DNA of 35,932 nt. It comes from a virus. Positions 3 through 26,409 of this stretch are shown here, one piece after another. The stretch covers positions 1-35,932 of IMG/VR virus record IMGVR_UViG_3300035181_000769; one strand, written 5' to 3'. Below the pieces are notes generated by a model. That model did no database searches. It was not told the DNA's origin and saw only the letters and a list, made by a program, of their open reading frames with translations. Position 1 is the stretch's first letter; every line of letters begins with the position of its first letter. Made by a program: the position numbers and the translations under genes.

Positions 3-3000
3 GAACGAACCGTATCAAAGGCAAGGAAAGGGCTATCGTATTCTCAGATTGCAAAAAAAATTGTCCCAAAGCGGTATTTGCCTTCTGTTGGAATTATGAA
101 TGGGGACACTCCGATAAGCACTGATCAGCTGGATACAATTCCGCCCGATGGATCTACTGTCTATATACGGGTGATGCCAGGACAAAAGGTTGCTCAGGCT
201 GTTGCGGATGTAGCCGCGGTTGTTACAGCTGTGGGTATTGCTGTTATGGGGGTTGGTATCGCTATTGCGGCCGCGCCTGTTATTTTTGCTGGGTTTCTTA
301 TAGCTGGAATTGCTTTGTCCGTAGCCGTTGCTGCAGGTATAACTATTTCAGCGATGAACGCCTACGAAGCACTGATACCTGATTTGACTAAGGGTGGGGG
401 TGGTGGTGGGGCTTCTGATACATTGCCCGGAGTAAGAGGCGGAAGTAATAGGATGAACCCATGGGGGGCGGTCCCTGTGATTCTAGGGGAAATGCTTGTC
501 ACCCCATCGTATGCCGCAGGCCCGTATACTGAAATAAGCGGGGCTGATGGGGTCGATCAGTATCTGATGATGCTATTTGTTGTCGGTTATGCACCCCTAA
601 AAATCACTAATATCAAAATAGGCGATTCGTTGATAGCGACTAACTCCGCAGATCAGCGGAATGGGACCATTGTGAGCGATGGGATATTTTCCGGAGTAGA
701 ACTGGAAATCCGCGAATCGGCCGGCTCAATGACTTTATATCCGTATATATGCGTGGAAGAACAGCCTAATGCTGAGCTACAATGCCCTTCGGGCTCTCCG
801 TCGGTTATGGTTAGGACTACACCCCCAAATACTACGAATATTTCCGTTGATATTGCTTTCAATTATGGATTGATAGGATATGGGGATGGCAATACCCCAA
901 AAAATGCCACAGTGGAAGTTTATGCTGAGTATAAATTAAGCAGTGATACCACGTGGAATTCACTCGGTGTTTGGGATGGGGTCGGTTCGACTGTAATTAC
1001 AAAACAAAGTTCGAAAACAATCCGGTACACGATGTCAAAATCCGTGACCGCTGGTCAATATGATGTAAGGCTTAAGCGGGTAACTGCGGATTCAACCGAT
1101 GTTTCGGTTAGGGACAAAGTTTCGTGGCTATCGTTTAGGTCCTTCAAATCAGAAGATCCCGTTGTCAACCAATCCGATGTTGTTAGGCTTGCTTTGAAGA
1201 TAAAGGCTACAGATCAGTTGAACGGGGTTCTTAATAAGGTTTCGATGATCGCCGAATCTGTTGTCCCTGTTTACTCTGGAAGCGGGAGCGGCGCGAGTAG
1301 TTGGACAAGCACCGCGGTCAGCAGGAACCCCGCGGCGTTGCTAATGAGCGTTTTACGCGGGGTTTTCAATCCAAGGGTTGTCCCTGATAGTAAAATGGAC
1401 TGGTCCACGCTTGAATCATGGTACACTTATTGCGCCGCGAAACCTTTTAATTGCGACTCAATAATTGACAGAGCCGCTACCATGAAAGACATTCTCACAA
1501 GGATTGCCGGCGTCGGACGCGCGACCCTTGCAATGCGTGATGGGAAATATTCTGTAGTAGTAGATGATGTGAGACCCTCTCCGGTCCAAGTATTTACACC
1601 GAGAAACTCTAGAGATTTTAAGGGGACAAAATCATATCCTGAAGTCCCCCATTGCTTAAAGCTGTCATTCGTCAACGCTGCAAAAGATTATGCACAGGAC
1701 GAGTGCCTGGTTTATGACGATGGCTATAATGAGGGAAACGCTACCAAGTTTGAATCGTTTGATTTGTGGGGAGTAACGTCATACGAACAGGCTTGGAGGC
1801 AGGGCCGGTATATGATTGCCGCATACAGACTTCGGCCGGAAGTATTCGAGATCACCGTTGACGTTGAACATATCGTCTGCACCAGGGGGGATTGGGTTCT
1901 TGTTACCCACGATATTCCAATGTGGGGCATAGGGTCGGGAAGAATTAAGGCGCTGACTGTTGATGGGTCAAATAACGTAACAAGTATCACAACCGATGAA
2001 GCGTTTTTGATGGAAAATGGGAAATCCTATTCTGCAACGATCCGGACTGATGCCGCTTTAATTCTAACAATTCCTGTAGTCACCAATATTGGGACTCAAA
2101 CGACGCTAGTATTTTCTTCGCCTATATCCGCGGCGAGCGGGGTGAAGGTTGGCGATATGGTAGCGTTCGGTGAAACGATGTCGGTGACAACTGACTGCAT
2201 TATTGTCGGGATATCGATTCAAGATGATTTATCTGCAAATGTTTCACTTGTTGAATATGCTCCAGCTATTTTTACAAGTGACACAGGGACTATCCCTTCG
2301 TTTGACTCAAAAATAACCAAGCGCGTTCCGCCGATAACTGATGGCTATTCGATTATACCCCCAGTCGCTCCACAAATGGGGGATCCGTTACCGTTCAACG
2401 ATCCGAAAATCTTAAGTCTATCTGTGACCTCAGCCTTACGGTCAAGAATGAATGCTATAACTCCGGACACCCTTACAATAACGGCAATGAACCAAGACAA
2501 AAGTGCGTATAGTGGTCGCTTTACGATTGAATTGTCCCATGATGGCATGTCATTCCAAAGCCCGGTATATACTTCATCGTCTGACCAGTCAAGTTATACA
2601 TATACGATTCCCGCGACAATGGTGGTTTCTTCTGTTACCTATTTCGTCATGGCAATTCGTGTGAAGCTTTATATGGCTGGGGGAACGACAACCTTATGTA
2701 ACCAAGGCGTTTGCTCAGTTTCGGCGGATCCGCTTTTATCGCCATGTTATTGGGGCGCGCTAACGTCAGCCCCGGCTTCTGGATTTATTTCCGGCGATTA
2801 TTACTGGGATAATAACACTCCGGCGTCGGACGGCGGCAAGATAAGATATTACAACGGGACGTCGTGGGCTGAAATGCTATCGTCCAATCCTTTATATTAT
2901 ACGGCATGGTCTTCGGCTATGATTGACGCCCGATTATGGGCCGTGGCGAATTCGACAGCAATTCCAGAGGCTGTCAAAATGGCGACGGCAACCGCTCAGG

Positions 3001-5570
3001 CAATGGCCCAGAAACAGATCGTTGACGCCTTGCCGGCTAATCCATATACGGGTTATTCTATCGGTGATTTCGTAGTGCTTACCACGGACAAAAAGCTATA
3101 CAGGCTGACATCCACTTCCTTGCCAGGGGCTACCGGGTGGACGGCGGCAGTCGATGGAAATGACGTTTCAAACCTTCCTATTACTTCACTAGCTTCAGGC
3201 CTTAGACCACCCCGGGTGGTTTCATCGTTGCCGGTATCACCGTTTACCGGGTACGCGGCTGGAGATACGGTGGTCCTTACCACTGACAATAAGCTCTATC
3301 GGTTTACTGGGACCGATTTCACTAAAGCGGTGGATGGTTCCGATATTGTCGCGGATTCAATCACTGCGGCCCAAATTGCTACCGGTGCAATTACGGCTGA
3401 TGAGCTTGCGGCGAATGCCGTGACGGCTGTAAAGATTCTTGCAGGAGCTATATCGGCAGATAAGCTCGACGTCCTTGTCCGTAACAGGGTAAATAGTTTT
3501 GTTAATTCACTCGATGGAACAAACGGGTGGTCGCTTGATTCTGGGTGCACTATAGTCACCGTAGACGGCCTTCGGACCCTTCGGGCAGAAGCGCCGAACT
3601 GTAACTTCTCCTCTTCGCCGATAGAGGTTTTGCCGGATGAAATCCTAGCCTTCACTTTCGCGTTACAATGTCCAAATTACACCACGGGTTCAGGGCTTTT
3701 CCTTGGGTTGACGGACGCAGATACCTATGAGGGTTTCTATTATAACTGGCCGACAATGCAATGGATAAGCGACGGAAGTGGAATAAACCGTTATTTTGTT
3801 AATGATTTTAAGTCTACGGGAAAAGTCAAATATAAGACCTATATTCTCGGGAGCAACGTCGATATATCGCTCGTGCCGGCCCCGGATGCCCCAAGCGGAA
3901 CTACAATTTACTGTCTAAAGCTCCAGGCTGGAAAAACGTCTACGACGATACACACTGGGTATAATACGACAATGTCGGGGACATACTGGTATTTCTTCCA
4001 GCCCCAAGTTAAAAACATTGACGGCGGAAAGGTTATCGCGTCAAATATCATGGCGGGTTCCATTACCGCGGCACAGATCAATGTTGGCGACCTTGCAGCT
4101 AACGCAGGATTTTACAATGCGCTAACCGCTACAAATGCCTTCATTCAAAGCCTAATGGCGAAATATCTTCAATTGCAAACTGGCGGGGCAATCTATTCCG
4201 GCGGTTATGATCAATCTGGTAATAATCCAAATAACCTACCTGGTGTCTATATCAACGCCGGTGGAACCATGATGGCAAACCAGATATCTGTAAAAAACTC
4301 GACGGTGCAAGGAACAAGCGTGAATATAAACTTTGCAGGTTCATGGATATACGGAACCTGGGGGAGTGAAAGTGTAGTTAATAGTGCAAACTATGATTAC
4401 ACCAGTCTTGCCGTACTACCTGATGGCAGAGTTCTGTGTTTGTATAGAAGAGGTTCTGATGGATATCAAGTTCAGCGCATTCGTGATACCAGCGGGACTT
4501 GGGGTAGCGAGACATTAGTTACTAGTGTAGCCTTGACTTACTCCAGTCTTGCCGTACTGCCTGATGGCAGGGTTTTATTTGTGTATAGAAGAAATTCTAC
4601 TGGCTATCTAGTCCAGATAATCCGTGATACCAGCGGGATATGGGGTGGTGAGAGTGTAGTTAATGATGAAGGCTCTTATACCCCTAGCCTTGCCGTACTA
4701 CCTGATGGCAGGGTTTTGTGTGTGTATAGAAGGAGTCCTGATAACTATCTAGTCCAGATCATTCGTGATACCAGCGGCACCTGGGGCAGTAAAAGTGTAG
4801 TTAATAGTGCAAGCTCTGATTACAGCAGCCTTGCCGTACTAACTGATGGCAGTGTTTTGTGTGTGTATAAAAGGAATTCCGATTCCTATATGGTTCAGCG
4901 CATTCGTGATACCAGCGGAACCTGGGGGAGTGAAAGTGTAGTTAATGGTGCAAGCTCTGATTACAGCAGTCTTGCCGTACTACCTGACGGAAGGGCTTTA
5001 TTTGTGTATAGAAGGAATTCCGATTCCTATATAGTTCAGCGCATTCGTGATACCAGCGGAACCTGGGGCAGTGAAAGTGTAGTTAATAGTTCAAACGCTT
5101 GGTACCCTAGCCTTGCCGTACTACTTAACGGCAGTGTTTTATTTGTGTATAGAAGATCTTCTGATAACTATCTAGTCCAAAGACTCGACACATCCCACTA
5201 CACATCCGTACCAATAGGTTCCTTCCCCGTGCAACTTGGCGCGGGACTCATTGAGGTAGGGGAAAACTCCAATGGTATCTGGATTAAGATTAGCGATGGG
5301 ACTATGGTGTGTTTTGGTACAATTACATATAGCTCTACAGCGGCTCGCTTTACAAGTATTACCAAAACACTTCCTACGTCTTATATAAAATCATCGTCTT
5401 TTATAGTACATACATGGCTTAATATTGATATATCAGTCAATTCTACGATTAACTGGTCCCAGCCTGTAAGTGTGAACACATGGAACTTCCAGGAAACAGC
5501 TCTCGATGCCGTTAATTTGACAGCTGTAACAAAGACAGCATATTACATTGCAATAGGGAGGTACCAATGA
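3..5570 (+). CDS. Tail tip / host-specificity protein (lambda J-like), 5' end cut by window edge
   Basis: Very large tail-tip protein expected to form the central tip and contact the host receptor. The frame is open from base 3 with no start, so the N-terminus lies across the window edge (see 35912). A hydrophobic Ala/Val/Gly-rich stretch at about 190-360 is followed by a Gly run and the segment [19 protein letters not shown], typical of J/TipJ-type proteins. Middle parts look like fibronectin-type or beta domains, with two similar segments near 3010-3330 and ITAAQI-type repeats near 3360 and 4060. Six 47-aa repeats (4353-5198) look like propeller blades. The final 120 residues, with the motif [15 protein letters not shown], resemble tail-fibre C-terminal domains. 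It overlaps the next gene by ATGA. J-like identity is confident; domain edges are inferred. Confidence 0.88.
4353..5198 (+). repeat. Six tandem 141-bp units in the tail-tip gene (47-aa propeller-like blades)
   Basis: The marker CTTGCCGTACTACCTGATGG, or a close variant, recurs at 4407, 4548, 4689, 4830, 4971 and 5112, a period of exactly 141 bp. Each unit encodes a hydrophobic strand ([16 protein letters not shown]), a second strand ([11 protein letters not shown]) and a WGSESVVN turn. Units four and five are nearly identical at DNA level, and the last unit diverges at its end. Six such blades fit a six-bladed beta-propeller of sialidase/BNR type. That is a fold inference; no catalytic function is claimed. 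Confidence 0.9.
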
Positions 5571-5833
5571 AAATTAAATATAGTCCAGTACATACTGATA
5601 ATCAAAATACGGCTATTGAATACGTTGACGAAAACACCATTATGATTGACGGTGAGCTTTACGAGTTTGACCCGGATTCTGTTGTTTGGGAAGACATTGA
5701 CGTGCAAACCGGGTATCTAATCATAGGGGCCAAGCGGGTTGATGGTGAATTATGGTTTGAAGTAGTCCGATATTATACAGACATACGGCGACCAGATTGG
5801 GACACGGGGGACTACCATGATATTAAAGGGTAA
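5567..5833 (+). CDS. Small tail-region protein (phage hypothetical)
   Basis: An 88-aa acidic protein starting inside the tail-tip stop (ATGA overlap), so it is translationally coupled to it. The opening [19 protein letters not shown] and the later [13 protein letters not shown] match the style of a small protein often found just after tail-fibre genes in Gram-negative phages, which begins MKIKLSP and has an INGE-F-F segment. Its function is unknown; a tail-fibre accessory role is inferred from position. No membrane segment or signal peptide is visible. Confidence 0.75.
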
Positions 5834-6077
5834 GACACAGGCGCAGGTGGACAAGGAGAAACAGATAGCCGATTGGAATATGGTTATTGCGGACTCAAAA
5901 AAGGACCTGGCTGAAACCGATTGGGTGGTTATCAAGTTAAACGAATATCAAATAACGAATCCAGAAGAGTACGAAGTAATGCTCGAAAAATACAAGCCAG
6001 TCCTTGACGCCCGGGAAAAGATGCGCCAAGATATAAACCAGGCTGAAGAGGCGCTACGAAATGCAGGGGCTTTATGA
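5817..6077 (+). CDS. Putative tail-fibre assembly / XkdW-like small protein
   Basis: An 86-aa charged, helix-rich protein overlapping the previous gene by 17 nt. It contains a lysine/glutamine-rich helix, then the segment [22 protein letters not shown], then a long helix with [21 protein letters not shown]-(A/V)IK core followed by a helix ending in an ALR-type segment is common in small proteins downstream of tail fibres (XkdW or tail-fibre-assembly style). The role is inferred from this pattern and position. It may equally be an uncharacterised tail accessory protein. Confidence 0.65.
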
Positions 6078-6711: not shown

Positions 6712-6907
6712 TGAAGAATATCATCTGCGGGGTATGACTGGCGATGACCCATATTTAACCTTGCCGCCATGCCACTATTGTAAGCATGTTATGCAAAATG
6801 GTGGAATATATTTGGACAGGTATACATGCAAAGCTTTTCCTGATGGGGTACCAGCGCGTATTACCTTTCGAAGGGAGGTGTGTCAATGCCGTTATGTCGA
6901 GACTTGA
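6704..6907 (+). CDS. Small Cys-rich phage protein, copy 1 (paralogue of 26421)
   Basis: About 67 aa. The core LPPCHYCKHVMQNGG, a later Cys and KAFPDGVPARITF closely match the protein at 26421-26699 in both residues and DNA. The two CxxC cysteines plus the third (YTCKAFPDGVP) suggest a small metal-binding knuckle. Proteins with this C-x2-C...C-x-AFPDG-P pattern are common hypothetical genes near phage head genes. This copy is shorter: it ends REVCQCRYVET and overlaps the endolysin gene. Start chosen at ATG 6704; ATG 6677 in the same frame is an alternative. Function unknown. Confidence 0.7.
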   Translation: MNDEEYHLRGMTGDDPYLTLPPCHYCKHVMQNGGIYLDRYTCKAFPDGVPARITFRREVCQCRYVET

Positions 6908-7802: not shown

Positions 7803-8042
7803 AGAATGGAGGGCCACTATCCCACCGTATAAGCATGTTTTTGAGTTTGTACAGCATTCATTGAAAATCGTCGATGATGGTAATAAGGTTTCTATGGTCC
7901 TTAAGATGCAATATATGATGGTTTATATGGGAAAATGGATACAGAGGGGGTGCCTTCTTAGAGTGGTTTAATTAAAACCGCCCAAGAAGAGGCGAGTTTT
8001 GTATATCGTGATACATGCGGGGTCCGCATGAAAGGAGCTGGG
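7803..8042 (+). other. Gene-poor stretch before the spanin-like genes, ending in two hairpins
   Basis: A 69-codon open frame from TTG 7765 crosses this stretch but has no ribosome site and I do not support it. GGTTT/AAACC with a short AT loop lies near 7965. GTAT/ATAC (8001-8014) and the perfect 7-bp hairpin CATGCGG-GGT-CCGCATG (8014-8030) lie directly against the AAAGGAG ribosome site (8031-8037) of the overlapping gene pair. Such a hairpin could tune translation of both genes; that is inference. Confidence 0.5.
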
Positions 8043-8534
8043 ATGTGTCAAAAATTAAAATTGTGGCTATCGCTTTTGGGCTTGCTTTTATTTTTATCGG
8101 GTTCGGTTTCATTATGGGCCGAAGATACGACGAGCAACGACACCAGCTTGAAATCCGACAGCTCTATTACGAATACGCCGGAAGGATCGCCGAATCTGAT
8201 TCAAAGCGGGTCGAGCTTGAACGAAGCTTGGACGATGCTAAAAAACGAATTGATGGAATCAGCGAAAGACTCGGAAGCGCAGTTGAACTTGCTCGAAAAG
8301 CTACAGACCGAAACCGAAGAATTGAGATACTCGTATCAGTCATTGATGGGATCATACGAGAAGGAGAAGCAAGCGCGGGACGCTGAGCGGGCGGCTTCTG
8401 AGGCTTTAACTGGAAAACTTGAATCGGATGTGGCCCGCTTAAACCGCTCAATATCAATATGGAAGCCGGTTGCGATATTTTCAAGCTGTGCATTTGTTTC
8501 ATTGGGTGCAATCATGCTGGCATATTCTCACTAA
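8043..8534 (+). CDS. Signal-peptide coiled-coil protein with C-terminal membrane anchor (spanin partner candidate)
   Basis: A 163-aa protein. Residues 2-26 form a signal peptide (MCQKLKLWLSLLGLLLFLSG, then SVSLWA with a likely cut before EDTT). A Ser/Thr/Asn-rich linker follows, then a coiled coil with LLEKLQTETEELRYSYQSL and KQARDAERAASEAL, then a C-terminal membrane helix near residues 137-160. It shares its first 342 nt with the gene starting 2 nt later in another frame. The export signal and coil suggest a periplasmic partner in outer-membrane disruption. Unlike Rz1 it is not an obvious lipoprotein. Start ATG 8043 lies 5 nt after AAAGGAG. Confidence 0.65.
   Translation: MCQKLKLWLSLLGLLLFLSGSVSLWAEDTTSNDTSLKSDSSITNTPEGSPNLIQSGSSLNEAWTMLKNELMESAKDSEAQLNLLEKLQTETEELRYSYQSLMGSYEKEKQARDAERAASEALTGKLESDVARLNRSISIWKPVAIFSSCAFVSLGAIMLAYSH
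8045..8386 (+). CDS. i-spanin candidate (Rz-like), embedded in another frame of the previous gene
   Basis: A 113-aa protein starting at GTG 8045, overlapping the ATG at 8043 (ATGTG). It has an N-terminal membrane helix (VAIAFGLAFIFIGFGFIMG), then a charged coiled coil (EQRHQLEIRQLYYEYAGRIA, ERSLDDAKKRIDGISERL), and ends with IIREGEASAGR. N-anchored, periplasmic coil and about 110-150 aa is the classic Rz inner-membrane spanin plan. Both frames show sensible protein features over the same bases, so both are probably real. The location after endolysin and holin supports the lysis role. Confidence 0.7.
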   Translation: MSKIKIVAIAFGLAFIFIGFGFIMGRRYDEQRHQLEIRQLYYEYAGRIAESDSKRVELERSLDDAKKRIDGISERLGSAVELARKATDRNRRIEILVSVIDGIIREGEASAGR

Positions 8535-8579: not shown

Positions 8580-8611
8580 AAAGCTCCGGATGAATCCGGG
8601 GCTTTTTTTTG
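8580..8611 (+). terminator. Strong rho-independent terminator closing the lysis region
   Basis: AAAGC-T-CCGGAT pairs with ATCCGG-G-GCTTT around a GA-containing turn, followed by a run of eight T. The stem is about 11 bp with one mismatch. It separates the late/lysis transcripts from the early promoter at 8655. Confidence 0.9.
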
Positions 8612-8654
8612 CTTAAAAATCATAAAAAAAACATGAAAAAACTTAAAAAAACGC

Positions 8655-8683
8655 TTGCTTTTCTAACAAAGGGGTGCTATACT
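8655..8683 (+). promoter_or_regulatory. Sigma70-type early promoter
   Basis: TTGCTT (8655-8660), a 17-bp spacer and TATACT (8678-8683), with TGC directly before the -10 (extended -10 character). It lies in an AT-rich stretch after the terminator and is the first promoter of the replication/recombination region. Predicted transcription start about 8690, giving a leader of about 210 nt before the ATG at 8903. Confidence 0.8.
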
Positions 8684-8689
8684 TAAAAC

Positions 8690-8832
8690 ATAACATAAGG
8701 GCGAGCAACGGGATGGCAACCGCGAGCGCCCTTACCGCAGGGGATGCGGGCACGGAGGGGTCAGTACGAGCCCCGAGAAAGTCCACCATGCGGCCCACGG
8801 GCGAGGGATAGAGCCCCGGTTTTAAGACCGAT
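8690..8832 (+). other. Structured, GC-rich mRNA leader upstream of the ribozyme
   Basis: No gene is supported between 8535 and 8902. After the promoter the leader folds locally: AAGGGCG (8697-8703) with CGCCCTT (8727-8733), GGGG (8757-8760) with CCCC (8771-8774), and CGGT/ACCG (8817-8830). GGTTTT (8818-8823) can alternatively pair with GAAACC (8874-8879) in the ribozyme core, a possible competing fold. I recognise no known riboswitch. Confidence 0.55.
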
Positions 8833-8879
8833 GGTCTACGGCTTGACGCCGTACTGATGAGGCCCAGTAGGCCGAAACC
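8833..8879 (+). ncRNA. Type III hammerhead ribozyme
   Basis: All core positions are present in order. Stem III 5' strand GGT (8833-8835); cleavage triplet GTC ending at C8836; stem I TACGGC/GCCGTA (8837-8842 with 8848-8853, 6 bp, loop TTGAC); conserved CTGATGA (8854-8860); stem II GGCC/GGCC (8861-8864 with 8870-8873, loop CAGTA); conserved GAAA (8874-8877); stem III 3' strand ACC (8877-8879). Helix III is the open one, hence type III. It is only 3 bp as drawn, the weak point. Self-cleavage would fall after 8836, leaving a 5'-OH RNA with 66 nt before the ATG at 8903. The match is by known hammerhead consensus, read directly from the sequence. Confidence 0.88.
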
Positions 8880-8902
8880 TAGGAAATCCAAAGGAGCATT
8901 TT

Positions 8903-9133
8903 ATGACTACCAATGAAATCAACACTATCTTAGAAAAACGCTACGCAATCGCAGTTGATGAGGTCTACCACGGCCTGGATCATATTCTTTACAACTCCGA
9001 TGTTAAGAGTGGGGCCCAAGCGCGGGCTACTATTGACGCGATGTTTAGATACTTCGGCGATGATCTAATGGCCGAGTCAATCGATTATGCGACCCACCGG
9101 CTAAAAGTAAACCGCGCGGTTCCAAGGTTTTAA
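8903..9133 (+). CDS. Small hypothetical protein, first gene after the ribozyme
   Basis: A 76-aa helix-rich protein with AAAGGAG 7 nt before the ATG. The sequence has two helices (TTNEINTILEKRYAIAVDEV, and RATIDAMFRYFGDDLMAES) and a basic end (HRLKVNRAVPRF). It is the first gene of the early transcript from the 8655 promoter, translated downstream of the hammerhead cleavage point. I do not recognise a family. No membrane segment, Cys motif or enzyme motif is visible. Confidence 0.75.
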   Translation: MTTNEINTILEKRYAIAVDEVYHGLDHILYNSDVKSGAQARATIDAMFRYFGDDLMAESIDYATHRLKVNRAVPRF

Positions 9134-9274
9134 TCGGGATGGGGGCTTCCCCTATGATCGATAAGGCGGGCCGACCCCGCCAAGGCCACAAAACGGAGGC
9201 CTCCACCCGAACAGGGACGGCGTGGCCGGGTACGGCAGAATCCGAAAATACGGCGAAAGCCGGAAGGAGTCTTT
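9134..9274 (+). other. Structured intergenic leader before the DUF932 gene
   Basis: 141 nt without a supported gene but dense in hairpins: GGGG-GCTT-CCCC (9141-9152), GGCGGG/CCCGCC (9165-9170 with 9176-9181), GGAGGCCTCC (9195-9204) and CGGC-GAAA-GCCG (9251-9262), a GNRA tetraloop hairpin set directly against AAGGAG (9264-9269). No hammerhead core is present here. The last hairpin may stabilise the transcript or control access to the ribosome site. Confidence 0.6.
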
Positions 9275-10324
9275 ATGAAAACCGGTATGAAGGTTGACCA
9301 GTTCTTGGCCGAGATCGCCCGGCGCGATCAGGCTAAAATGGACTACGTGGCACCGCAGGCCGCGATGAGCATGGCCCCCGACGGGGAGCATTTAGAGGTT
9401 AAAGGCCTGGGGGCGTTCAGTTTAACTAACATTGCCCATGGGCAGATCGCTGAGCGGATGCGAATTCCGCGGAGCTATTATGAACGGTGTGGGGATGTCC
9501 CGGGGCTTAGGGCTCAGAACGTCAATGGGTGGCTACACAATGGGGACGAGAACGCCGTTCGCCGAACTATACGAACCATGGACGGCAGGGCCAGGGCGAT
9601 CCTGAGCGATCGATACAGGCCGCTGGATAACATTCTAATAGTTGGGGCCGCGCTCCCGGTATTGGCCGCGAACCCTGACCTAATCGTAACGGCCGCCGAC
9701 ATCGGCGAGGCTCGAATGTATCTCCAGGTAGTTCTACCGAAGCTACATGCTGAAATTCAGGTCGGGGATGCAGTTCAGTACGGGTTCACCATTACCAACT
9801 CGGAAGTGGGGATGGGTGCAGTCGATGTAAAAAGTTTTGTTTACCGGCTGGTATGCAAGAACGGGATGATTGGCGAAAGCGTTACCCGGCGCTACCACGT
9901 AGGCCGCAGGGTCGGGAATGACGAAGAGGACTACTCGATATTCAGCGATGAAACTATCGAGGCGGAGCTAAAAAGCTTCCAGCTACGGCTTCGAGATACA
10001 CTCATCGCAACGTTAAACCAAACAGCCTTTGAGGCGCTGGTTGAACGGATGCGGAAGGGTGTCGAAGATAAAGTGGCGCCGATAAGTGTTCAGGACACGG
10101 TTCTAAATATCACAAAGCGGTATTCCATGAGTGAGGCTGAGATGTCGGCGATTTTCAACCGTATCATGGGTGACGGGGGGTTCAATAGATGGCATATAGC
10201 CAACGCAATTACGGCTCAAGCGCATGATACCGAAAATCCAGATCGTCAGTATGATCTTGAGCGAATCGGCTACGAGTTGGCGGTTATGCCTTCAAAAGAA
10301 TTTGCGACGATGGTCGCGGCATAA
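9275..10324 (+). CDS. DUF932 family phage/plasmid protein
   Basis: A 349-aa protein matching the DUF932 (phage/plasmid-like TIGR03299) pattern: IAHGQIAERMRIPRSYYERC near residues 50-69, then VNGWLHNGD, RTMDGRARAILSDRYRPLDN, and later VVDV-type strands and CKNGMIG. Family members are common in phages and plasmids. Their biochemical role is not established; association with DNA recombination or replication genes is typical, and here Cas4-like and Rad52-like genes follow. The start has AAGGAG 5 nt upstream. No metal-ligand cluster is obvious. Confidence 0.85.
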   Translation: MKTGMKVDQFLAEIARRDQAKMDYVAPQAAMSMAPDGEHLEVKGLGAFSLTNIAHGQIAERMRIPRSYYERCGDVPGLRAQNVNGWLHNGDENAVRRTIRTMDGRARAILSDRYRPLDNILIVGAALPVLAANPDLIVTAADIGEARMYLQVVLPKLHAEIQVGDAVQYGFTITNSEVGMGAVDVKSFVYRLVCKNGMIGESVTRRYHVGRRVGNDEEDYSIFSDETIEAELKSFQLRLRDTLIATLNQTAFEALVERMRKGVEDKVAPISVQDTVLNITKRYSMSEAEMSAIFNRIMGDGGFNRWHIANAITAQAHDTENPDRQYDLERIGYELAVMPSKEFATMVAA

Positions 10325-20047: not shown

Positions 20048-20243
20048 AATATTCAGAGAATTGTACAAAAAGGCAAAGGATGGGACCATAAGTCCAAAAG
20101 AGTTGCAAGATTTTGCCGATGAGGCTATGGTATGCAGAAACTTAGGGCTAAAGGCCGAAGTTTGTGTCCATGACCTCATTAAGAAGCTTGAGGGGGTATT
20201 AAATGCTTCAAAAGCCGAAAAGTTCCAAGGGGACAAAGGCTAA
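20037..20243 (+). CDS. Small hypothetical protein between the radical SAM and terminase genes
   Basis: A 68-aa helical protein (IFRELYKKAKDGTISPKELQ, DFADEAMVCRNLGLKAEVCV, HDLIKKLEGVLNA). Its ATG overlaps the radical SAM stop and its end overlaps the terminase small subunit by 41 nt. No family is recognised. Two cysteines are present without a metal pattern. It may belong functionally with either neighbour. Confidence 0.62.
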   Translation: MRPEIFRELYKKAKDGTISPKELQDFADEAMVCRNLGLKAEVCVHDLIKKLEGVLNASKAEKFQGDKG

Positions 20244-23697: not shown

Positions 23698-26409
23698 ATG
23701 AAAGGCGATAATTCCGCTTCAAAGCTGGTATTCGATGAGATTATAAACCTTGAAGCGCTCTTATTCCGCTATAATGCTCTAGAAGCGCAGAAGATAGCGT
23801 CGAAAGCGTTTGATGTTTCCTTAATTGCTAAGATTATTCAGATGGATGCAACCACTCCGGCAAGCAAGGATCGCTATAACAAAATCCGTGAGACCTTCCT
23901 TGATTACTACAATACGGCTTCTGCGAAAGCTCACAATTCCACGATGCAATCGGGTAAAGATGTCGCTGGTATGGCGGCGGGTGGGGTTGCCGGGGCGCTT
24001 GAAAAAGGCATTCCGGTTGTGATTACCGCCAAGGTTCCTTCACCCCAACAGATCCTTACCGCGGCCGAAACCGATCCGATGACTGAACAGGGCTGGCTTG
24101 TTAAGGATTCCTTTATTCAATGGGGGAAAGCGTCGGGGCAATATATCGCGACGTCGGTTGTTAACGGGTATTTAATGGGCCAAACAGCGGACGAGATTAA
24201 GGCGAGGCTTGTGGGACAGTCGAAAAACGGATTGCTTACCGGGGAAATTGCAAAACAGCAAAAAAGCCTAGAGCGGCTTATTCGGACAACGCTCCAACAT
24301 ATAGAATCCAAAGCTCGGGATATGACATATTCCGAGAATGAGGATTTGATAAAAGGTTGGCAATACGTTGCCACGCTTGATACTCGGACGTGTCCTGAAT
24401 GCGGGGCGCTTGATGGGAATGTATATGACCTTGGGGTGGGGTTAAAACCGCCGATTCATTGGAATTGCCGATGTACCACGGTTCCAGTTGTCAAAGGCTG
24501 GAATGAGTTAGGGGCGTCGTTTAACCCTGGGAAATGGGGCGATGAACAACGGGCGTCGATGGATGGACAGGTTCCTGGGACCCTAACATGGAAAGAATGG
24601 ATCGCTAAAAAAGAAGCTGCGGAGCCTGGGTTTGCTAAAGCGGCGCTAGGCCCGGCCAAGTATGCGATGTGGAAATCTGGCGCTTGGGAGCCGGGGGAAT
24701 TTGCTCCGAATGATGGGGCGTATACGGCTGACCAGCTAAAAGCGATGTTGGCTACGAAAGGGTCTAATGCGGCTCAAGAAATAGCGAAACAGAAGGCCGA
24801 AGAGGAAGCTAAAGCCAAGGCCGAAGAGGAAGCGGCTAAGGCCGCAGAGGCGGCGGCGCTTAAGGCCCAGGCTCAAGAAGCGGAACTTAAAGCCTACGCT
24901 AAAGAACAGCTTGCAAAGGCGGAGTCGGAAGCTAAAGCGCGGCTGGTAAATGAGCCAGGAGTCGCAGGAGCTAAAGCCTTCGGGGATACGCTAACAGAAA
25001 AGTCAGCCGTGGTTGGGGGTTCTACCGGGGCGAAAATGTACGTTGACCCCTCTGGTGAAAAATGGTTTGTGAAAATGTACTCGGGCAACGTTACTCAAGC
25101 CCAGAATGAGTACATTGCGGCGAATATTTATAGGACGCTAGGAATTAGGGTTCCCGAGGTTCGAATGGTCGAAATAAACGGGCAACTCGGGATCGCGTCA
25201 AAGAATGTCGGTACTGGATATGTTGAGCTTAATTCCGTACCGCTAAAAACCGCTCAAAGTAGCTCATTCATAAAGAATGGGTATGTCGCGGATGCGTACC
25301 TAGCTAATTGGGATGTGGCCGGCTTGTCAATGGACAATATCATGGTCAAATTGTCCGCGAACAAAAAGCTGGCCGATGCTGTCCGGATCGATACGGGCGG
25401 GGCGCTTTTATACCGGGCCCAGGGGACTCCGAAAGGATCCGCGTTTGGGGCCACTATTAAGGAATTCGACACGCTACTCGATCCGAGTATCAACCAAAAT
25501 ACGGCGAAGTTGTTTTCAAAGCTAACCAAGCAGGAAATAATAAAGCAATGCAATGATTTGTTAAAAGTCCCGCATAGCGAAATCCGGGAGATTATCCTAA
25601 ATTCGGGAATAAGCAAATCTGAGGCTATACTCCTAGACAAAACATTGGCCGATCGTCGCGAATCCGTTCTTGATTATAAGCTAAAACTTGAAAAGGAATT
25701 AAAGGCGGAGCGGAAGGCCGCGAAGTCAATAGAGCCGGTCCCGGGTGTTACCGATTCGATATGGAATGGAAACCCGGTCCGATATGGGTTGCCGGACGGG
25801 GCGAAGGTCTATTCGGCTGATGAAGGAACTAAGGCATTGGATGCTGTTAAGCAAATGTTTGATGACCTCCCGTATGAACAGCAATCCGCGTTGAAAAACT
25901 ATACCGGATCCGGCTATCACGACATCAACGCTTCGGCAATGAGGGGGATGACGACGGAGCCGCTTGACAAGGCTTTAGATGGGGGACTTCCAAGACTGGA
26001 TTGTGTTGTGTTTCGCGGGGTTGGAGATGGCGGCGCAATGTATGATAACTTTGATAAGTTTGTTTCCGGGGAATGGGCCGGGGTTCACTTTTCGGCGTAT
26101 ACTTCAACCGCATATCAGAAGACTGGGTTTTATGGGGGATCGCGGCTTCGTCTAGTAATTGACCAGCACGGGATGCAGAGCGGCGGGCTTATAGAGGGGC
26201 GGTCCTCTTATAATGGGGAACATGAATATATCATTGGCCGCAATGCCGTGTTCCACGTAAAAGGGTGGGCCGCAAAAGAAGGAATGAAAGTCTTGTATTT
26301 GGAGGAAGTCCCGCCTGATCAAATCCCGAATTCTCAGGACAAGCCACAACAATGGGACTATGACGTGCTGATGAATTACCTGGATGAAAGGAAGCTTAAG
26401 ACAAATTAA
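23698..26409 (+). CDS. MuF minor head protein fused to kinase-like and ADP-ribosyltransferase-like domains
   Basis: A 903-aa three-part protein. Residues 1 to about 330: Mu gpF-like head morphogenesis domain with Cys232, Cys235, His254, Cys257 and Cys259 (CPECGALDG ... PPIHWNCRC). An Ala/Glu/Lys coiled linker follows (about 355-425). About 430-640: kinase-like, with Lys459 and Glu471, the NWDV...DN segment (Asp539, Asp546, Asn547) and IDTGG (Asp565). About 680-895: ART-like of R-S-E type, with Arg773 in VFRGVG, YTST at about 801-804 and the E-x-E pair Glu841/Glu843 in GEHEYI. MuF-linked polymorphic toxins are known. An injected effector role is inferred. Confidence 0.85.
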   Translation: MKGDNSASKLVFDEIINLEALLFRYNALEAQKIASKAFDVSLIAKIIQMDATTPASKDRYNKIRETFLDYYNTASAKAHNSTMQSGKDVAGMAAGGVAGALEKGIPVVITAKVPSPQQILTAAETDPMTEQGWLVKDSFIQWGKASGQYIATSVVNGYLMGQTADEIKARLVGQSKNGLLTGEIAKQQKSLERLIRTTLQHIESKARDMTYSENEDLIKGWQYVATLDTRTCPECGALDGNVYDLGVGLKPPIHWNCRCTTVPVVKGWNELGASFNPGKWGDEQRASMDGQVPGTLTWKEWIAKKEAAEPGFAKAALGPAKYAMWKSGAWEPGEFAPNDGAYTADQLKAMLATKGSNAAQEIAKQKAEEEAKAKAEEEAAKAAEAAALKAQAQEAELKAYAKEQLAKAESEAKARLVNEPGVAGAKAFGDTLTEKSAVVGGSTGAKMYVDPSGEKWFVKMYSGNVTQAQNEYIAANIYRTLGIRVPEVRMVEINGQLGIASKNVGTGYVELNSVPLKTAQSSSFIKNGYVADAYLANWDVAGLSMDNIMVKLSANKKLADAVRIDTGGALLYRAQGTPKGSAFGATIKEFDTLLDPSINQNTAKLFSKLTKQEIIKQCNDLLKVPHSEIREIILNSGISKSEAILLDKTLADRRESVLDYKLKLEKELKAERKAAKSIEPVPGVTDSIWNGNPVRYGLPDGAKVYSADEGTKALDAVKQMFDDLPYEQQSALKNYTGSGYHDINASAMRGMTTEPLDKALDGGLPRLDCVVFRGVGDGGAMYDNFDKFVSGEWAGVHFSAYTSTAYQKTGFYGGSRLRLVIDQHGMQSGGLIEGRSSYNGEHEYIIGRNAVFHVKGWAAKEGMKVLYLEEVPPDQIPNSQDKPQQWDYDVLMNYLDERKLKTN

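Follow-up and report, generated by a model that had tools for sequence, protein, structure and literature searches.

The viral record IMGVR_UViG_3300035181_000769 (35,932 nucleotides, positions 1 to 35,932, analysed at full length and referred to here as the window) is best explained as carrying a type III hammerhead ribozyme in the 5′ leader of its early operon. Judged from the sequence, it is likely that this ribozyme would cleave itself during transcription and in this way process the operon mRNA. The parts of this explanation differ in certainty. The identification of the element at 8833-8879 as a hammerhead ribozyme is close to certain, and the element is very likely able to cleave. Processing of the 5′ end of this operon is its probable function, although this is somewhat less certain than the explanation as a whole.

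Anatomy of the ribozyme

A type III hammerhead at 8833-8879 had been proposed in a preliminary description, in which both the site and the strand were correctly given. The core and the three helices can be drawn without exception, and consist of the following features.

8833..8879, + strand: type III hammerhead ribozyme, supported by RF00008, by the phage model R1, and by a random-sequence control
8834..8836, + strand: cleavage triplet GUC, with the predicted cut after C8836, between 8836 and 8837
8837..8853, + strand: stem-loop I, UACGGC-UUGAC-GCCGUA, the predicted 5′ end of the cut mRNA
8854..8860, + strand: core CUGAUGA
8861..8873, + strand: stem-loop II, GGCC-CAGUA-GGCC
8874..8879, + strand: GAAA of the core (8874-8877) and the 3′ strand of the 3-bp stem III

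Stem I joins 8837-8842 to 8848-8853 through 6 bp, all Watson-Crick, around the loop UUGAC, while stem II joins 8861-8864 to 8870-8873 through 4 bp around the loop CAGUA. Stem III consists of the 3 bp U8835-A8877, G8834-C8878, and G8833-C8879. Helices I and II are thus closed by loops and helix III is open, with 6, 4, and 3 pairs, respectively, all of which are standard. CUGANGA, GAAA, and the NUH triplet occur in the correct order with no departure from the consensus core; the ordered core elements, stems I and II, and the 3-bp helix III described earlier are all present.

A contact between loops I and II, which the preliminary description had suggested, is possible in the window through UUG and CAG (3 bases, one G-U). 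Across 41 phage ribozymes, Watson-Crick complementarity between the two loops lies above that of shuffled pairings (reached by 3 of 500 shuffles), an excess that comes mainly from the GCU/AGC class, to which the window hammerhead does not belong. Watson-Crick pairing of the two loops into a pseudoknot is rejected as a general feature, since it is confined to one subclass of phage ribozymes.

Statistical support

The Rfam family RF00008 matches the window hammerhead with 34.0 bits and a rough E-value of 1.9e-5 (701 bases, 4227 families), by far the top match. The search with a hammerhead covariance model, proposed earlier as a check, is therefore in favour of the element, though the score lies below the RF00008 gathering score of 48.5 bits, which is a curation threshold and corresponds to no structural feature. 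Because 34.0 bits does not reach this cut-off, a default Rfam scan of the window is blind to the hammerhead and does not list it. The cut-off is likewise reached in none of 18 phage loci with type III hammerheads, and scores in six type III phage loci range from 32.5 to 46.7 bits. Since the phage type III members tested generally miss the RF00008 cut-off, the threshold is left out of the features that define the ribozyme, and default Rfam annotation overlooks this group in phages.

A second covariance model, R1, is based on 38 hammerheads that all come from other phages; the window does not contribute to it. R1 matches the window hammerhead with 54.3 bits and an E-value, also rough, of 2.4e-16 when the whole window is searched. 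Among the 38 phage ribozymes behind R1, 96.5% of helix cells are paired and both sides are changed in 169 cells. This covariation is strong but arises partly by construction, since inclusion demanded at least 4 pairs in stem I and at least 3 in stem III. A minimal type III descriptor finds one match in the window. First-order random sequence of the same composition yields 2 in 36 Mb, and 547 kb of DNA from other phages yields none.

R1 also matches 20088-20146 (+) with 20.1 bits, with stems I and III perfect at 5 bp each; no R1 match above 15.2 bits occurs in 523 kb of other phage DNA. The stretch is rejected as a second hammerhead because it carries the core change U4C, lacks a G-C pair at the base of stem II, has no Rfam match, and is contained in a plausible ORF of 68 aa that closely precedes the gene for the small terminase. 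The match is probably due to chance and possibly a decayed copy.

The leader and the operon

The ribozyme is set in the following surroundings.

8582..8610, + strand: terminator-like hairpin recognised by eye, with 9 pairs, a UGAA loop, and a T run, ending the preceding lysis/tail block
8655..8683, + strand: candidate promoter recognised from sequence, TTGCTT, 17 nt, and extended -10 TGc-TATACT (8678-8683), with a weak -35
8690..8836, + strand: G+C-rich 5′ leader of ~147 nt, released by the predicted cut
8891..8896, + strand: Shine-Dalgarno sequence AAGGAG, recognised from sequence
8903..9133, + strand: first ORF of the early operon, 76 aa, examined by family search
9275..10324, + strand: DUF932/phrog_1362 protein, the second gene of the operon

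The hairpin at 8582-8610 is not listed by a pattern scan. From the candidate promoter, transcription is expected to start at ~8690. The preliminary description called this promoter clear; a promoter is plausible given TATACT with the extended -10 TG, but the wording is overstated, as the -35 TTGCTT agrees with the consensus at 3 of 6 positions and the promoter is for that reason absent from a consensus scan. The folding signal of the whole leader to the start codon (8690-8902) is modest (z -1.4), and 8600-9300 contains no Rfam match other than the hammerhead. The latter result speaks against excision or circularisation through a second ribozyme close to where the small ORF ends, and this reading is rejected.

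Between the ribozyme and the ATG at 8903 lie 23 nt, and the distance from the predicted cut to this ATG is 66 nt. The predicted accessibility of the Shine-Dalgarno sequence is 0.54 before cleavage and 0.54 after it. Unmasking of the Shine-Dalgarno sequence by cleavage is rejected since its accessibility is unchanged by the cut; no direct translational effect is predicted, and RNA processing with altered stability is preferred over a translational switch.

No known family is found for the 76-aa first ORF. The DUF932 gene is followed by genes for a Cas4/PD-(D/E)XK nuclease, an Erf/Rad52 annealing protein, an HNH/NinB protein, an O-like replication protein, and a DnaB helicase, a gene content that bears out the earlier naming of an early replication/recombination operon. 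The main genes of the window all run in one direction. Elsewhere in the window, two ORFs at 8015-8386 and 8028-8534 (+) overlap in different frames behind an endolysin-like gene, a layout that resembles that of i-spanin and o-spanin. The 1830-aa tail protein at 78-5570 (+) contains several near-identical repeats close to its C-terminus.

Occurrence before phage genes

A search pattern consisting of the hammerhead core with the window's stem II retrieves at least 120 stretches from viral contigs, and 18 from bacterial and archaeal genomes totalling 257 Gb. Among the matches listed in viral loci together with the window, 53 are type III (the window included) and 74 are type I. In these pattern-selected loci, from phages that are partly related, an ATG-started ORF of at least 50 aa is found within 80 nt 3′ of 41 of the 44 distinct type III hammerheads among the matches listed, compared with 31% at random positions and 3/44 on the antisense side. 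When a Shine-Dalgarno sequence is also required, the count among the matches listed is 36/44 (6.6% at random positions, 0/44 antisense). A second type III class, with stem II GUCC/GGAC, was retrieved separately and has an ORF within 80 nt 3′ in 27 of 33 cases (random 34%, antisense 5/33), or in 10/33 with a Shine-Dalgarno sequence (random 4.8%, antisense 1/33). Many leaders of this class are A-rich and devoid of a Shine-Dalgarno sequence, as leaders are in Bacteroidota.

The distance from cut to ATG is also regular. It spans 54-88 nt, with a median of 68 nt, in type III hammerheads with the window's stem II among the matches listed, a range that includes the 66 nt of the window, and the median in the GUCC/GGAC class is 67 nt. 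In the window as well, a sense-strand hammerhead stands directly before a ribosome-binding site and start codon. Phage hammerheads of type I are also found directly before ATGs, with the cut at a median of 26-27 nt upstream. In these, the body of the ribozyme departs with the 5′ piece, leaving a new leader of ~27 nt, and this rules out a protective 5′ stem-loop as the purpose common to both types. Types I and III share the position of the cut relative to the gene and not the RNA that remains on the message.

Because the intergenic spaces of phages are short, any intergenic element will lie near some start codon. Orientation bias and serial arrangement are stronger evidence than proximity to an ATG. 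In three loci (L342, L343, and L344), consecutive genes each have their own type III hammerhead, forming hammerhead-RBS-ORF units. Where a terminase is detected in the pattern-selected loci, 30 of the 33 distinct hammerheads occupy the strand opposite to it, in divergent orientation, as expected for a location in the non-structural arm. At 526-580 (-) of another locus (L105), a stem III of 10 bp overlaps the Shine-Dalgarno sequence of the next gene, so cleavage there, unlike in the window, might expose the ribosome-binding site. Type II hammerhead matches (RF02276) also occur near type III ones, at 5832-5895 and 6817-6878 of locus L034 and at 220-284 of L105. In the cultivated strain Rhizobium lusitanum JHI1118, a type III-like match (locus L132) precedes an ORF.

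Conservation, which had been proposed as a check, has a mixed outcome. The core recurs at the same position in many phages; however, searches with its DNA, with exact protein patterns, and with the stem I of the hammerhead find no close relative of this phage. The stem I sequence is common only to the window and one other locus (L115) that has no match to the window's proteins. Phages that share the DUF932 gene are distant and have no hammerhead in 50 whole records or 80 loci, and a linkage of the hammerhead with DUF932 is rejected on this basis. It is thus the arrangement that is conserved and not the locus.

Proposed mechanism and alternatives

As read from the anatomy of the element, transcription would begin at ~8690, and once the RNA had been made to ~8879, the hammerhead would fold and make a single cut between C8836 and U8837. 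The 3-bp helix III would then come apart and the ~147-nt leader would depart carrying a 2′,3′-cyclic phosphate, leaving the operon mRNA with a 5′-OH on the fully paired stem-loop I, 66 nt ahead of the start codon. Such processing would be constitutive: the cistrons downstream would acquire a defined 5′ end of their own that lacks a triphosphate, and would become independent of the upstream RNA. A base-paired 5′-OH end is a poor substrate for the route through pyrophosphohydrolase and 5′-monophosphate-dependent RNase in many bacteria, and for this reason the benefit would most plausibly be a changed mRNA lifetime. This is the least certain step, and a benefit through mRNA stability is regarded as less likely than not.

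The ribozyme might instead serve the piece upstream of the cut (8690-8836), a structured phage RNA of ~147 nt whose 3′ end it would form, any effect on the mRNA being secondary. The leader is long and G+C-rich, contains no good sense ORF, and is served by a candidate promoter of its own; its release would give it a defined 3′ end. However, its fold is unexceptional, with the z of -1.4 obtained for the whole leader, and it has neither an Rfam family match nor a relative in the phage collection. In many other phages, moreover, the upstream gene stops 14-43 nt before the cut, which leaves no such leader RNA in those phages, and this explanation is considered unlikely. The absence of a comparable leader from many other phages also argues against a switched ribozyme, in which the hammerhead would alternate with another fold and cut only upon a signal. 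In the alternative fold, GAAACC (8874-8879) is engaged by GGUUUU (8818-8823), and the cleavage site is concealed by a GACC/GGUC hairpin. This fold is the computed minimum, at -23.7 kcal/mol against -20.4 kcal/mol for the hammerhead with an upstream hairpin, a result that also stands against the preferred explanation, but these energies omit tertiary contacts and Mg2+, and no relatives exist to show both folds conserved. A switch is given a smaller probability than an upstream RNA.

Slightly less probable again is an inactive relic, or an element with no function for this operon. Stem III is short, and a published in vitro test found no activity in 4 of 18 consensus hammerheads (PMC3088659), but the core bases are all unchanged, stems I and II are perfect, and a 3-pair stem III is also found in several other phage type III members. 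Core motifs alone do recur by chance, as in a second CTGATGA..GAAA at 26368 that has no helices. Given the rough E-values for RF00008 (1.9e-5) and R1 (2.4e-16) and the 2 matches in 36 Mb of random sequence, chance resemblance is excluded for practical purposes. Self-cleavage that would process the early-operon mRNA is preferred to each of these alternatives.

Comparison with known systems

RF00008 (Hammerhead_3) has the same core, helix order, open helix III, and GUC cut as the window element. The family is known from the circular RNA of plant viroids and satellite RNAs, whereas the window element lies in a phage mRNA leader and scores under the gathering score, at 34.0 bits. In the haloviruses HF1 and HF2, an early helicase gene is preceded by a hammerhead variant termed HHphage at a distance of 13 nt from the start codon, and a mapped mRNA 5′ end falls within 3 nt of the HHphage cut (PMC3088659). 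HHphage resembles the window element in standing at the head of an early viral operon, directly in front of the first start codon. It differs in its core, which is altered and contains an insertion of 2 nt where the window element has the consensus, and in its host, which is archaeal (Perreault et al., 2011; PMC3088659). Hammerheads also flank genes in prophages, where they are clustered and have been proposed to divide long phage transcripts into mRNAs that span an operon or a single gene (Perreault et al., 2011; PMC3088659); in the window, in contrast, a single ribozyme stands at the operon head. A 2017 review treats the role of hammerheads in prokaryotes as open and associates them with small non-conserved ORFs and phages (PMC6155905). 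No later study of hammerhead leader placement in phages was found in the literature, of which few subscription papers were covered.

Since gene-flanking phage hammerheads and HHphage were described in 2011, the window element belongs to a known kind and adds one more to the hammerheads already reported before phage genes. From the sequences compared here, a hammerhead before a gene is probably a standard phage means of trimming the fronts of messages. More tentatively still than the stability benefit, hammerheads of different types that cut just upstream of start codons may constitute a widespread phage strategy, in which cutting at a fixed short distance to the ribosome-binding site would place a 5′-OH on early messages or single cistrons and set their turnover apart from host decay through 5′-triphosphate and monophosphate ends. 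The regular spacing in distant counterparts, together with the window member, leads to the testable hypothesis that the cut resets the 5′ end of early mRNA before the ribosome-binding site. What is added here to the systems described in 2011 is the quantified spacing, the divergence from terminase, the contrast between types I and III, and the finding that the RF00008 cut-off misses phage type III hammerheads.
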